Assembly (NCBI GenBank): GCA_023248215.1
Contig: JAHFEW010000003.1
Span: 1 to 64,000, forward strand
DNA length: 64,000 bases
Direction of reading: 5' to 3'
From: Nitrospira sp.
GTDB taxonomy: Bacteria; Nitrospirota; Nitrospiria; Nitrospirales; Nitrospiraceae
Positions 24,204 through 54,323 of this stretch are shown in pieces (the first letter of the stretch is position 1; each line of letters opens with the position of its first letter). Below the pieces are notes generated by a model, which searched no databases, was not told where the DNA came from, and saw only the letters and a program-made list of their open reading frames with translations. Both the position numbers and the translations under genes were made by a program.

Positions 24204-27200
24204 ATGGCGCAGAAAAAGTCAGGCAAGGTCACCTGGTCGACAGCAGAGGGATGGGAGGTTCGTGCTGCGGAGCGCAGCACTAGCGCGGGGCGGCGAGCTG
24301 CGGCCGAGGCGCCGGACCCGTTTCTGACGAATCTCACTGCGACCAAGCGCTGGCAAGTCGAGCAGACACTCGTCGCCACGCCGAAGGCGCGTCGGGGCGA
24401 GGCAGCACCAGTTCCGCTCACCTTGGATGTCGAAGGCGGTCCTGATGAGGTGTACGTCGTCATGACTCGTTATACCTCCGGAGCCATTCGGTTTCATATG
24501 CCGACGGAACCGGCTCGACGCGGTGCACGGCGAGGCGGTCGAAGGATATACCGGTTTTCGATTCCCGTGCCGGCCGCCCCCGTCGAAGAGGCAGGTGGCC
24601 GCCGGGGCTTTATCAGCGCTGCTATCAAAACCGTGGTCTTGAAGATCGCGGGCAAAATTGCCGACTTCGCGCTCTCGAAGCTCGCGTTACTCTGGGAAAC
24701 CGCGACGTGGAAACTGAAAAAGCAACGTGAAGGTTGGCTCTCCGTGACTGCCGAGGGCCTCGGTGGGGAGCAGGGCCTGCCCGCCGCTGACTTACAGACG
24801 CTGAGTTCATCGGAACGCAATCTCCTGTTTCTCCACGGCACCTTTTCCAATACGAAAGCGGCCTTTCACGGACTGGCGCAGACGCAGGGCAGCAGCGGCA
24901 AAACATTTCTTGAGGAACTACAACAGGTCTACGGCAATCGTATCTATGGCTTCGACCACTTTACCCTGAGCCGCACCCCTCAAGAGAACGTGCAGATGTT
25001 GCTCGAGGCCCTGCCCGATCGCCCGACGACCTTCGACGTCATCACGCATTCACGCGGAGGCTTGGTCCTGCGGCATTTGGTGGAACGCCGCGATTTGTTT
25101 CCAGGCCTGGCCGATCGGTTCGTCATCGGCCGTGCCGTGCTCGTCGCCAGCCCGAACGAAGGCACGCCCCTCGCCTCGCCTGACCATGTGACCCAGTACA
25201 CGAACTGGCTGTCCAACGTGTTGGAACTGTTCCCCGACAACCCCTTCACCACCGGCATCGAATTCGTCAGCGAGGCGTTGTCTTGGATCGCCCGCCGTAT
25301 CGTCGGCGGGTTGCCGGGCCTGGCCTCGATGGACAACAAGGGAGACATCATTCGCGCGTTGCAGGCTGCGCCGGGACCACCGAACCAAGCCTACTCGGCT
25401 CTGGTCGCGAATTTCGAGCCGGACGCCGCCGTGCTTCAGCGAATCATCGATGCGGGCGCGGATTTATTTTTCGCGACAGCCAACGATCTCGTCGTCCCGA
25501 CTGAAGGTGGCTGGCGGGTGGATGCGGGAAGCGGAGCGGCAGTCACGATTCCAGGAGACCGCGTCGGTTGCTTCGGGCTAGGTGGGAATATGACCCAGCA
25601 GCATCCCGTGAACCATGTGAACTTCTTCGAGGATCCCGGCACGGTGGATTTTCTCGTTCGCGCCCTGCGCGGGCAAACGCAGCCCGGCACGCCGATCGAG
25701 ATCGAGACCAATCTGCCGTCAGGCCGCCGTCGCGGCGCGGGACGCCCGGAAGTCCAGCGCGAGGGTCGCCCGGCGGTTCGACCCGAGACGGCACCACCAC
25801 TTCGTGAAGAGCGAAGCCCTGCCCTACCAGCCGTGAGCTCCTTCACTCGCCCCCCGGAATCGGAAGACGTGTTTCAGATTGCCCTGCTCGATCCCCATCC
25901 GCAAGACAATGTGGCCGACCTCATTGCCACCTTTCGCAACGCGCGCGTGATGGAGAAATTAAGAAAGCGTCGGGACAGGCCGTCGAGCGCGGACGGGCCA
26001 CGCGCCGAATCGGACAGCGGAACGACTCACTGGCAGCAGATCATCGCCGTGCAGAAACGTATCCAAGGCTACATCGACGGCGACTCAAAGTTTCCGAAAC
26101 TCCCGGGTGAACAGGACCTGCAGCGCCTTGGTGCGGCCCTCTTCAAGACCCTGTTCCCCGGACAGGTCCGGCGACTTTACGACGCGGCCCGATCCGAGCA
26201 GACCAGCCAACGCCTCCATTTGATTTTCACGTCCGATATCGACTGGATCGCCGCACAGGCCTGGGAGTTCATCTACGATCCGGATCGCCGGAATTTCCTG
26301 GCTCTGGAAGAAGTAAATTTCACGCGGAACGTGCTGACGGCCATTCCGGCCGATCGCCTGCCCGAACGAGCGGGCGCGATGCGCATTCTCGTCGTGGTGG
26401 CCCAGCCGCTCGGACTTGGAAAATTGTCGGTGGAGGAAGAGGCGGACGTGATTCGCAGCGGATTTCGGCGCCTCCTTGATGCCAAGTTGGCTGAGGTGGA
26501 ATTGCTGCTCGATGCTACGCCTGAACTTCTGCATCGGACACTCGCGGCAGCCCACTCGCCATTCGACATCTTGCATTTCATCGGCCATGGCGAATATCGA
26601 GCCGAAGAGAATTGCGGGTATCTCGTCTTTGAAAACGCGGAAGGCGGAGTGCATGAACTGGATTCGTCCACCCTCCGCCAAATCGTGTGCCGCCGGGGAA
26701 TCAGACTGGTCTGTCTCAACGCCTGTGAGACCGGGCGCGGCGGACGCGAAGATTTCAGCCGCGGGGTGGCGCAGGCCTTGATCGCCGGCGGCGTGCCGGC
26801 TGTCGTCGCCAACCAGTATCCTGTGTTGGACGTGTCAGCGACTGCGTTTACGCGGCACTTCTATTGGGCACTGGCGCTGGGACAGTCCATCGGCGATGCG
26901 GCGCGCGAGGCCCGAGTCGCGGTGAACTATTCGATTTCCGGCGAAGCGATCGATTGGGCGGTCCCGGTGGTGTTTGCGCGCAATCCGGCCCAGCGGCTCT
27001 GCCTGCCGCGAGAGGCGGCCGACTACGAACGGACACGCACGGCATCGGTTCGCGGGCGCCGGCGAGCCGTGCAGGATCGGATCAAAATCGGCATCTGGAA
27101 TGCGCATCGCATGATTCCTCACCTGCCGGAGATTTGTGACCATCTCACGAAAGCGCAGAACATGTTTTCGTTTGAAACCGTCTCCTTTCCGGCGCCGATC

Positions 27201-27668
27201 GGCACCTGGCGACGCGAAAAAGATGAAGACCAAGCCTTTGTGGTGGCGGAGACGCTCTATGAACGGCTGAAAACCAAGCCCAAGGAATTGGGAGTAGACC
27301 GGCTCGTCTGCATGATCAATTTCCCGCTCAAGAGCAAAGACGCAAAATATTTGTATTACTGGCCGCTCAAGCCACGGCAGGACGAGCCATTCTCGGTTGT
27401 CTCAACATTTGAGGTGCTGGATCAATTGACCGGACCGGAATTCACGGTCGAACGGATGATGGCTCATCTGGCCGCAGGCGTCGCCGCAAACCTCACACCC
27501 CATCGTCATGGGCCGGCTGACTGTCCGTTCTTTTATAACTCGAATCGCAACATTCGTTCGATTGCCGGGCGGCTGACGTTCTGTGCGTCGTGTCGTAAGA
27601 AGTTCACAGGGAAAGCAGGACTCGCCAGACTGCGGGCGGCGGAACAACTGCTGGCGGCCTATCCGTGA
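24204..27668 (+). CDS. Lipase/CHAT caspase-like fusion protein
   Basis: 1154 residues. After about 195 residues of basic N-terminus with a hydrophobic stretch comes an alpha/beta-hydrolase domain (residues about 205-500): LLFLHGTFSN, then the nucleophile DVITHSRGG (Ser283) and NHVNFFEDPG near its end. After a variable, proline/arginine-rich linker comes a CHAT protease domain (about 720-985) with the His in FIGHGEY (His795) and the Cys in LNACETGRGG (Cys841). The last 170 residues are cysteine-containing (CPFFYN, FCASCRKKF) and look somewhat like a zincin-type domain without HExxH. No transmembrane segment is certain. It stands alone, ahead of a minus-strand operon. Confidence 0.85.
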   Translation: MAQKKSGKVTWSTAEGWEVRAAERSTSAGRRAAAEAPDPFLTNLTATKRWQVEQTLVATPKARRGEAAPVPLTLDVEGGPDEVYVVMTRYTSGAIRFHMPTEPARRGARRGGRRIYRFSIPVPAAPVEEAGGRRGFISAAIKTVVLKIAGKIADFALSKLALLWETATWKLKKQREGWLSVTAEGLGGEQGLPAADLQTLSSSERNLLFLHGTFSNTKAAFHGLAQTQGSSGKTFLEELQQVYGNRIYGFDHFTLSRTPQENVQMLLEALPDRPTTFDVITHSRGGLVLRHLVERRDLFPGLADRFVIGRAVLVASPNEGTPLASPDHVTQYTNWLSNVLELFPDNPFTTGIEFVSEALSWIARRIVGGLPGLASMDNKGDIIRALQAAPGPPNQAYSALVANFEPDAAVLQRIIDAGADLFFATANDLVVPTEGGWRVDAGSGAAVTIPGDRVGCFGLGGNMTQQHPVNHVNFFEDPGTVDFLVRALRGQTQPGTPIEIETNLPSGRRRGAGRPEVQREGRPAVRPETAPPLREERSPALPAVSSFTRPPESEDVFQIALLDPHPQDNVADLIATFRNARVMEKLRKRRDRPSSADGPRAESDSGTTHWQQIIAVQKRIQGYIDGDSKFPKLPGEQDLQRLGAALFKTLFPGQVRRLYDAARSEQTSQRLHLIFTSDIDWIAAQAWEFIYDPDRRNFLALEEVNFTRNVLTAIPADRLPERAGAMRILVVVAQPLGLGKLSVEEEADVIRSGFRRLLDAKLAEVELLLDATPELLHRTLAAAHSPFDILHFIGHGEYRAEENCGYLVFENAEGGVHELDSSTLRQIVCRRGIRLVCLNACETGRGGREDFSRGVAQALIAGGVPAVVANQYPVLDVSATAFTRHFYWALALGQSIGDAAREARVAVNYSISGEAIDWAVPVVFARNPAQRLCLPREAADYERTRTASVRGRRRAVQDRIKIGIWNAHRMIPHLPEICDHLTKAQNMFSFETVSFPAPIGTWRREKDEDQAFVVAETLYERLKTKPKELGVDRLVCMINFPLKSKDAKYLYYWPLKPRQDEPFSVVSTFEVLDQLTGPEFTVERMMAHLAAGVAANLTPHRHGPADCPFFYNSNRNIRSIAGRLTFCASCRKKFTGKAGLARLRAAEQLLAAYP

Positions 27669-51554: not shown

Positions 51555-54323
51555 ATGTCCGACCTCATCTTCTCCGGGAAATACCTCGTCCAGGAAGAAA
51601 TCGCCAAGGGGGGCATGGGGGTCATCTACAAGGCGTTAGACCGGACGCTCAATCGCTTCGTCGCAATCAAGGTCATCCACGAACATTTCTCCGGCGATCC
51701 CTCCTTCACCGAGCGGTTCCTCCGTGAAGCCCGCGCGATGGCTCGCCTCCATCATGAGAACATCGTCACAATCTTTTCCGTCGAAGAAGAGCGGGGAGCC
51801 CACTTTATTGTTATGGAATATTTCCCCGGCATGGACCTCCGCGCCAGGATTAAGGCCCGCAAAGCGCTTCCCCTTTACGAAAGTGTAGACATTGCGCTGC
51901 AAATCGCCCATGCGCTGACCTTCGCGCACTCCCAAGGTATCGTTCATCGGGACATCAAACCAGCCAATATTCTGGTTGATACCAGGGGACGTGTCAAATT
52001 GACCGACTTCGGCATTGCGGCTGCGTTGGATGAAGCGTCCATTACCAGCGCAGGGCAAATCATAGGGACGCCGGAGTATATGTCTCCGGAACAGGCTGGA
52101 GGCCTGGAGATAGATGGCCGCACCGACCTCTATTCTTTGGGCATCGTGCTTCACGAAATGATCGTCGGGCAGACTCCGTTCCACAACATTCCGAAGACTA
52201 CTATCCTGAGCAAGCTTCTTGATCCGCAATTTGAGATCCCACTGATATTCTCGGCCGAGACACCATCGACTGTGAAAGCCATTGTCGAAGACCTTGTCCG
52301 CCGGGACCCCGAATATCGAACGCCGAGGGCCGCGATTCTTGCAAACCAGTTAAAGGAATGTCTGGCATCCTTGCCCAGGCAGGAGGCTGAAGAGGCTCCC
52401 ACGATCATCGCAACGCCGCCGACTCATATAACGCGTCCGACAAGGGTCGGGCCCACTCCTCCGCCCCATGAATCGTGGACCATCCCATCCCCACAGACTG
52501 CGCGGCCACAGATAGAATCAGGTGCCCAGCCACCAGCCAGCCAACCCCAGACTAACCTGTCTCGACCCCACCCAGAGGATGAAGCGACCGATATCCTCCC
52601 GCGGCCCAAAACAACGTCGCAGTCTCCGCCGCCACCACAGGGCAAATCCATGTGGCGAGCGTATTTTTTTGCGCCGGTCGCGGTCGGAGTATTGGCCCTG
52701 GTTCTTATGCTCGGCGGCCTCGCATTCTTGCTATCAAAGGGAGATTGGGCATCAACTTCATCAATCAATAAGACCGGATCGGCCTTCCCTTCCAGACCCG
52801 ATTCTAGCAATACCGAAACAAACACCTCCTCCGCTTCAAGTCGCGCTCAGCAGCCAACGCACAGCGCTCTACGAGACTCCACTACCGAGCAGTCTGGAAG
52901 CGGTACCAGTGCTCAACTGCAGGCTCAAATAGAAAAGGAACAGCAGCAGCTAGTCGTAGATGAGGCCAGGGTGGCAGCCAAACGTCGCGAAGCCGAAGCG
53001 ATCCAGAAAAAGGAAAAGGACCAAGCGGCCAAACTAGCGAAGGCCGCCGAAGAGCAACGGCACACAGCGGAAGAAGCGGCTCGTGTAGCCCGCGAACGGC
53101 AGGAAACCGAACAGCGGAAGTTTACTGAAGAGCAGAAGCGTCTGGACAAGCAGAAGGAACTTGCCACCAAGCAAGCTCAGGCAGCTGAAGAACAGCGTCG
53201 CAAGGCACAGGAAGACGCGCGTACGGCCCGCGAGCGAGAGGAACTCGATACCAGACGGAGCAAGGAAGAGGCAGAGATGAAGCATCTGCAGGCCGAACGG
53301 CAGCGGCTGGAGAAAGAACGGGAAGTGGCCGAAGAGCAAGCCCGCCTGGCAGAAGCACAGCGAAAGAAGACCGAAGAGGAAGCGCGGTTGGCCAGAGAGC
53401 GTCACGAATCAGAGCAACGGCGATTCCAGGCTGAACAACAACGCATTGAAAAGGAGAACGTACTCGCAGCCCAAAGAGCAAAAACGCAAGAGGAGGACCG
53501 TCGCAAAACGGAGGAAGAGGCCCGTCTTGCGCGTGAACGCCTAGACGCGGAACAGAAACGGGTGCAGGCCGAACGCGATCGCCTGGAAAAAGAGAAAGAG
53601 TTAGCCGCACAGAGAGCTCGCGTTGAGGCAGAGGAACGCCGGAAAGCGGAAGAAGAAACCCGGGCTGCTCGCGAACGCAATGAGGCGGAACAGAAGCGAC
53701 TCCGGGCCGAACGGGAACGGGCTGAAAAAGAGACGGAGATGGCGGCGCAGCGGGCAAAAATTGAAGCCGAGGAACGGCGAAAGTCGGAAGAAGAAACCCG
53801 CGTGGCCCGAGAGCGGTACGACGCAGAGCAGCGACGTCTTCAAACTGAACGGGAACGAATGGAAAAAGAAAAGCGAGAGGTGGCTGCACAGCAGGCGAAG
53901 ACAGAAGAGGAAGCACAAAAGAAGCAGGCCGCCCAAGAGGACGAACAGCGGAAGAAAGACCAATTGGTCGCCAAACTCACTCCTGGTGGCCAGATGAGCG
54001 CCACCGCATCGCAGCGGCAGCTAGAAGGCATCCTCAAGGAATTCATGCGCGCCTACGAGGATCAGGACTTTGCGGCCTTGAAGCGCTTGTCTGATATGGA
54101 CAGTGACCGGCTCATGTACCTTGACACTATGTTTCACAAGTATCGATCAATGAAAGTTAAACTCGGCACTCTCACGGTGAAGGACCAGGAGGCCTCAGCG
54201 ACAATTACCCACGAAATCCTGATAGACAACAATGGCGATACGGTAGTTCCAAGTCCGATTCACAAAGCCTTTAGAATCAAGATCCGCAAAACGGGGGATC
54301 AATGGACAAAGATCGTATGGTAG
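51555..54323 (+). CDS. Transmembrane Ser/Thr kinase with long coiled coil
   Basis: 922 residues. The kinase domain (about residues 9-275) has IAKGGMGVIYKA, VAIKVI (Lys39), IVHRDIKPANIL (about 130-141), LTDFGIAAAL (about 148) and TPEYMSPEQA. A proline-rich linker leads to one membrane segment (about 369-392, FAPVAVGVLALVLMLGGLAF). Residues 455-802 form a highly charged Glu/Arg/Lys coiled coil with repeats of about 30 residues (AEEQRRKxEEEARxARERxE). The C-terminus (815-922) is a globular domain also found in the kinase at 56881: RAYEDQDFAALKRLSDMDSD. Confidence 0.92.
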   Translation: MSDLIFSGKYLVQEEIAKGGMGVIYKALDRTLNRFVAIKVIHEHFSGDPSFTERFLREARAMARLHHENIVTIFSVEEERGAHFIVMEYFPGMDLRARIKARKALPLYESVDIALQIAHALTFAHSQGIVHRDIKPANILVDTRGRVKLTDFGIAAALDEASITSAGQIIGTPEYMSPEQAGGLEIDGRTDLYSLGIVLHEMIVGQTPFHNIPKTTILSKLLDPQFEIPLIFSAETPSTVKAIVEDLVRRDPEYRTPRAAILANQLKECLASLPRQEAEEAPTIIATPPTHITRPTRVGPTPPPHESWTIPSPQTARPQIESGAQPPASQPQTNLSRPHPEDEATDILPRPKTTSQSPPPPQGKSMWRAYFFAPVAVGVLALVLMLGGLAFLLSKGDWASTSSINKTGSAFPSRPDSSNTETNTSSASSRAQQPTHSALRDSTTEQSGSGTSAQLQAQIEKEQQQLVVDEARVAAKRREAEAIQKKEKDQAAKLAKAAEEQRHTAEEAARVARERQETEQRKFTEEQKRLDKQKELATKQAQAAEEQRRKAQEDARTAREREELDTRRSKEEAEMKHLQAERQRLEKEREVAEEQARLAEAQRKKTEEEARLARERHESEQRRFQAEQQRIEKENVLAAQRAKTQEEDRRKTEEEARLARERLDAEQKRVQAERDRLEKEKELAAQRARVEAEERRKAEEETRAARERNEAEQKRLRAERERAEKETEMAAQRAKIEAEERRKSEEETRVARERYDAEQRRLQTERERMEKEKREVAAQQAKTEEEAQKKQAAQEDEQRKKDQLVAKLTPGGQMSATASQRQLEGILKEFMRAYEDQDFAALKRLSDMDSDRLMYLDTMFHKYRSMKVKLGTLTVKDQEASATITHEILIDNNGDTVVPSPIHKAFRIKIRKTGDQWTKIVW

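Follow-up and report, generated by a model that had tools for sequence, protein, structure and literature searches.

The pairing of a caspase-superfamily protease with an alpha/beta-hydrolase has already been described in bacterial conflict systems and is therefore not new in itself. In the VMAP (MoxR–vWA) ternary systems, predicted to be switched effector modules, an alpha/beta-hydrolase is encoded next door wherever a caspase domain occurs (Kaur et al. 2020, PMC7159879); we liken this partner to our hydrolase by its description as an alpha/beta-hydrolase, not as DUF7379. Csx29, the TPR-CHAT protease of Craspase, has another protein as its substrate: it cleaves Csx30 at residues 427–429 within a flexible loop, and the available portion of that report mentions no requirement for Arg-Arg (PMC10028731). 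Bacterial orthocaspases cleave after basic residues (PMC6426788).

We analyzed a 64,000-nucleotide stretch of a Nitrospira sp. contig (JAHFEW010000003.1, positions 1–64,000; hereafter, the window). Unlike the VMAP systems, it encodes both modules in a single chain, together with a third domain, in a core gene of the genus. No MoxR, vWA, or VMAP genes were recognised by eye among the neighbouring ORFs at 20–32 kb. A literature search by name for DUF7379 or TCAD returned nothing, and neither the single chain nor the pseudo-archaemetzincin, the core status in Nitrospira, or the Arg-site code was found in the open-licence literature searched.

The complete gene occupies positions 24204–27668 of the forward strand, exactly matching the borders of the ORF, is present in a single copy in its genome, and encodes 1154 amino acids with the order hydrolase–CHAT–pseudo-archaemetzincin. 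Pfam assigned residues 207–386 to DUF7379 (E = 2.7e-45, 155.1 bits against a curated cut-off of 33), a region that palmitoyl-protein thioesterase also matches weakly, and residues 640–920 to CHAT (PF12770, clan CD; E = 3.1e-32, 112.6 bits against a cut-off of 24). The C-terminal 200 residues had no Pfam match, and no TPR domain was detected by Pfam anywhere in the protein. A phmmer search of the PDB with the whole protein gave no meaningful match, and the full-length AF2 model was moderate (pLDDT 70.7, pTM 0.43). Three-part homologues with 36–54% identity were found in Acidobacteria, Verrucomicrobia, Proteobacteria, Planctomycetota, and one Flavobacteriales (Bacteroidetes) MAG; the preservation of the architecture at this distance puts the three-domain fusion far beyond chance.

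The alpha/beta-hydrolase module (DUF7379; residues 173–498, positions 24720–25697) has a lipase fold. Its best VIA match was the Legionella phospholipase PlaB (Z = 15.6 over 238 residues), from which it differs in sequence (16% identity), followed by Candida lipase B (CALB, Z = 15.1). PlaB is not known to carry a fused protease. The nucleophile Ser283 (25050–25052, within THSRGG), Asp428 (25485–25487, within NDLVVP), and His471 (25614–25616) were invariant in 19 diverse aligned homologues. From family knowledge and the fold, we take Asp428 and His471 to be the acid and the base of the triad, respectively; pLDDT was low around Asp428 in the full-length model. The predicted Ser–Asp–His triad is complete, and the hydrolase is predicted to be lipase-type with a lipid substrate.

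The caspase-like module (residues 554–934, positions 25863–27005) aligned lengthwise with Csx29 and separase. For residues 551–934, Csx29 was the closest VIA fold match (Z = 22.5, 297 residues); separase (Z = 19.6) and gingipain R (Z = 15.4), both of clan CD, also share the fold. The dyad residues His795 (26586–26588) and Cys841 (26724–26726) were invariant in the same 19 sequences; the module is a predicted protease of the separase/Craspase type with an intact dyad. Csx29 shares this dyad; however, the window protein has neither TPR nor Cas7-11, carries a fused lipase, and its proposed substrate lies in cis. Separase, which cuts after Arg, acts on cohesin in eukaryotes, and gingipain R, Arg-specific according to its PDB title, is a secreted protease; unlike the window protein, neither is joined to a lipase. 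Gingipain R and the orthocaspases are clan-CD precedents for basic specificity. The invariant Asp876 was considered as a candidate equivalent of the Asp in the S1 pocket of separase, but we kept it out of the argument. The closest solved CHAT by sequence was SAVED-CHAT (8tl0, E = 8e-14), which differs in its cyclic-nucleotide-binding SAVED domain, none being detected in the window protein.

The C-terminal domain (residues 958–1154, positions 27075–27665), missed by Pfam, was identified by structure. Residues 945–1154 modelled alone reached pLDDT 88.5 and pTM 0.85; the best Foldseek matches were archaemetzincins (E = 6e-6) and snapalysin, and in VIA four archaemetzincins ranked top (Z = 12.4–13.1, the best at 3.5 Å over 172 residues), with adamalysins at 10.5. 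Although the fold is that of archaemetzincin (peptidase M54), HExxH was absent from this domain in the window protein and all 23 homologues compared, and the M54 zinc-binding active site HExxHxxGxxH was likewise not present in these 24 sequences. His1100 remains, while Cys1107, Cys1127, and Cys1130 are kept in most, not all, of them and, with His1100, possibly form a putative structural metal site that includes a CxxC. Judged from sequence and model, the domain appears to be a catalytically empty relative of the archaemetzincin fold, not a working M54 member, which accords with the frequent inactivity of peptidase domains in the effector position of conflict systems (PMC7159879).

A preliminary description of this DNA had proposed a lipase–CHAT fusion of 1154 residues, with nucleophile Ser283, an intact His795/Cys841 dyad, and a third, Cys-bearing domain of zincin layout without HExxH. 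The ORF, both Pfam domains, and both active sites confirmed the fusion; the lipase fold matches and the invariance of triad and dyad across phyla agree with the first two domains, and the archaemetzincin match with the third. That the gene stands without a partner was borne out, and we share the view, drawn from the lack of a partner gene, that any switch must be internal.

The most distinctive feature of the protein is a recurrent Arg-Arg motif followed by Gly, Ala, or Ser (RR-[GAS]), which starts at residues 30, 63, 105/109, 133, 509, and 953. The N-terminal region (residues 1–172, positions 24204–24719), beta-rich with disordered loops in the AF2 model and proposed here as a pro-region, is homologous in other phyla at 27–39% identity. 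It holds site 1 (RRA, residues 30–32, 24291–24299, in the low-pLDDT segment 24–34), site 2 (RRG, 63–65, 24390–24398, in a loop), site 3 (RRGARRG, 105–111, 24516–24536, pLDDT low at 108–111), and, just before the lipase module, site 4 (RRG, 133–135, 24600–24608, in the low-pLDDT segment 126–138). The last is the most widely kept, occurring as RRG/S, TRG, or TTRG in relatives. Site 5 (RRRG, 508–511, 25725–25736) lies in the lipase/CHAT linker within the low-pLDDT segment 505–531, and site 6 (RRRA, 952–955, 27057–27068) in the linker between CHAT and the C-terminal domain (low pLDDT at 939–955 in the full-length model). Five of the seven sites in the window protein fall in segments with pLDDT below 50, for which poor alignment is an alternative cause, and the other two in or beside loops; sites 1–4 lie in loops that may belong to a single beta fold. 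The stretch that follows site 4 is predominantly cationic and shows moderate amphipathicity (hydrophobic moment 0.26–0.47). A free amphipathic helix was considered there and dropped, the moment being only moderate and part of the segment being read as a strand by AF2.

Across 19 sequences, RR-[GAS] was counted against shuffles, which ignore relatedness among the sequences. The N-terminal region had 71 occurrences against 9.5 expected and CHAT 17 against 8.1, and of the linkers, the one between lipase and CHAT (linker A) had 12 against 2.5 and the one after CHAT (linker B) 11 against 4.6; no excess was seen in the lipase (5 against 5.2) or the C-terminal domain (0 against 2.9). The excess is specific to RR and is not shared by RK and KK. 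In the N-terminal region, G/A/S follows RR in 86% of cases (background, 31%), and in linker A in 9 of 16 (background, 37%), the linker signals being modest when taken alone. Linker A is otherwise only 15–38% identical outside Nitrospira, while its RR-[GAS] islands stay. These conserved RR-[Gly/Ala/Ser] islands in the N-terminal region and the linkers are what we regard as new.

The motif also changes with the type of protease. Among 16 non-Nitrospira relatives with the NAC-type CHAT of the window protein (in two of which, L070 and L077, the piece read ends before CHAT and the subclass is assumed), the N-terminal part contained 59 RR[GAS] against 8.6 expected, with no excess of [ST]RG (4 against 3.4). 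In relatives with NCC-type CHAT, only four sequences, some placed by similarity and one (L080) with its CHAT beyond the contig end, the proportions were reversed: 10 [ST]RG against 0.9 expected and 3 RR[GAS] against 1.9. The sites of the two groups align; Arg-Gly is kept, and the preceding residue is altered at several sites together. Loss of Cys in NCC-type CHAT was rejected as a cause of the missing RR, because NCC forms keep both His and Cys. In L102, L106, and L092, a caspase-type N-terminus is fused before DUF7379, which is an independent caspase–lipase fusion, and one TTRG is kept at site 4; C14 identity was confirmed for L102 (by Pfam) and L106 (by Pfam or similarity). RR[GAS] enrichment was found neither in the Brocadia C14 fusions nor in the Bacteroidota forms, confining the RR code to NAC-type relatives and the operon of Herpetosiphon. 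In the latter (Herpetosiphon aurantiacus, L082:5999–9284), a CHAT-like protein and a DUF7379 hydrolase are encoded unfused, by two overlapping genes, and three RRG sites persist in the separate hydrolase. Next to the hydrolase–CHAT gene, either immediately upstream or in divergent orientation, a small C14-like caspase gene was observed at L065:7114–7908, L077:6918–7850, and L074:4729–5703, lying just upstream in the first two.

These observations lead us to propose, with about an even chance of being right, that the window protein is a self-processing caspase–lipase zymogen, in which cleavage after Arg by the clan-CD protease would free the lipase or switch it on. The proposal rests on the invariance of both active sites across phyla, on the fold matches of the three domains, on the occurrence of RR-[GAS] in the N-terminal region and both linkers, on the basic specificity of orthocaspases (PMC6426788), and on the caspase/alpha-beta-hydrolase pairing in VMAP systems (PMC7159879). 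The main argument comes from the joint change of motif and protease, together with the RRG sites retained by the separate Herpetosiphon hydrolase: a surface feature need not track the protease, but a cut site must. A recurrent motif at domain borders that changes with the protease, in small NCC and C14 samples, is what would be expected of an Arg-specific self-cleaving polyprotein. The earlier idea of self-cleavage thereby gains support from the conserved sites.

From the active sites, folds, and motifs described above, we infer activation, cutting, and lipid attack as follows. The C-terminal domain, which has kept the shape of a metalloprotease but lacks the catalytic motif, would probably sense a trigger signal, whereupon the CHAT domain would become active and cut its own chain after Arg-Arg. 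Cutting at site 4, directly before the lipase module, would remove the N-terminal region, and cuts in the linkers would sever the domains, leaving the lipase freed or switched on. The lipase would then act on lipids, with cell death or regulated membrane turnover as the outcome. More specifically, and only tentatively, the gene may be a one-gene bacterial caspase–lipase switch for death or membrane attack, in which the protease would release the lipase by cleaving several matched Arg sites of its own chain, and in which protease subclass and cut-site code changed together in three ways—apparently RR-G with NAC-type CHAT, [ST]R-G with NCC-type CHAT, and TTR-G with the C14 caspase. If true, the protein would unite in one polypeptide a lipid-hydrolysing analogue of caspase–gasdermin, encoded by a core gene of nitrite oxidisers, and should it kill, bacteria on which nitrification and wastewater treatment depend would carry an autonomous protease–lipase suicide protein as a core gene. 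A vague association of caspase and lipase becomes directly testable, as specific cut sites are proposed and can be altered by mutation, and the function of DUF7379 and its travel with three kinds of caspase-fold protease may be explained.

Two biological roles, both compatible with a self-processing zymogen, were weighed against the distribution of the gene. Some form of it was present in all 28 Nitrospira genomes searched: in one piece in 25 (75–82% identity; one of these, L010, with an in-frame TAG), in two pieces in two, and as a C-terminal fragment only in one. The same three downstream genes (by eye nucleotidyltransferase-, methyltransferase-, and glutamyl-phosphate-reductase-like) followed it at 15 of 15 Nitrospira loci tested. 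Among 32 other genomes of the family, the full-length gene occurred only in G042, whose short locus keeps the first two of these neighbours. We conclude that the window gene belongs to the core genes of Nitrospira, occupies a fixed locus, and is inherited vertically. Outside the genus its occurrence is sporadic, and no relative was found in viral contigs.

An anti-phage or abortive-infection effector, in which a sensor triggers CHAT and the lipase destroys the membrane, is possible though rather doubtful. Such use is suggested by the predicted conflict systems to which caspase/alpha-beta-hydrolase pairs belong (PMC7159879), by the TPR-S or TCAD7 domains of relatives, and by the neighbourhood of the homologue on the Ruegeria pomeroyi megaplasmid (L038:10953–14820). 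This copy, which has no C-terminal domain, is followed by a SIR2-like/AAA_21 ATPase gene and an HNH-like gene, possibly forming with them a three-gene defence operon. However, PADLOC matched only the CHAT part of the window protein, no defence neighbours were recognised in the window, and a gene conserved at one locus in practically all Nitrospira genomes does not show the patchy distribution of a defence gene. We consider equally uncertain a house-keeping envelope enzyme, whose built-in protease sets the activity or turnover of the lipase with no role in death; its single-copy, vertically inherited core status within Nitrospira is consistent with this, but visual inspection showed no signal peptide, occurrence outside Nitrospira is sporadic, and the architectures of relatives are those of conflict systems. 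The presence of the gene in nearly all Nitrospira genomes and its conserved neighbourhood there speak for a fixed physiological role, for example in regulated death or in membrane turnover.

The reading that competes directly with self-processing, and which we think unlikely, is that the conserved RR-G loops form a surface binding anionic membrane lipid, nucleic acid, or a partner, while CHAT acts on other proteins, the lipase being controlled through its conformation or through contact with the membrane. It would suit the position of sites 1–4 in loops of the beta-rich region, the cationic character of the stretch following site 4, and the action of Csx29, the closest fold, on a separate protein (PMC10028731). 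It leaves unexplained, however, why the motif recurs in two more linkers and why NCC-type CHAT goes with a joint shift to [ST]RG, in which a positive charge is lost at several sites together.

A decayed or chance fusion, to which the third domain without HExxH, the TAG in L010, and a Rhodospirillaceae MAG copy (L058:2433–5903, a split gene or pseudogene in which an in-frame stop parts the archaemetzincin-like portion from the rest) might point, has a negligible probability and is refuted by the present data, namely the one-piece gene in 25 of 28 Nitrospira genomes and the active sites invariant in other phyla. The preliminary description had tied decay to the lack of a hydrolase core around Ser283 or of either dyad in homologues; structure prediction yielded the core, and the fused homologues keep both active sites.

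Elsewhere in the window, positions 51555–54323 of the forward strand encode a 922-aa protein, by eye a Ser/Thr protein kinase, with a long coiled coil of Lys, Glu, Arg, and Gln. This gene causes the AT skew of 0.385 at positions 52001–54000.
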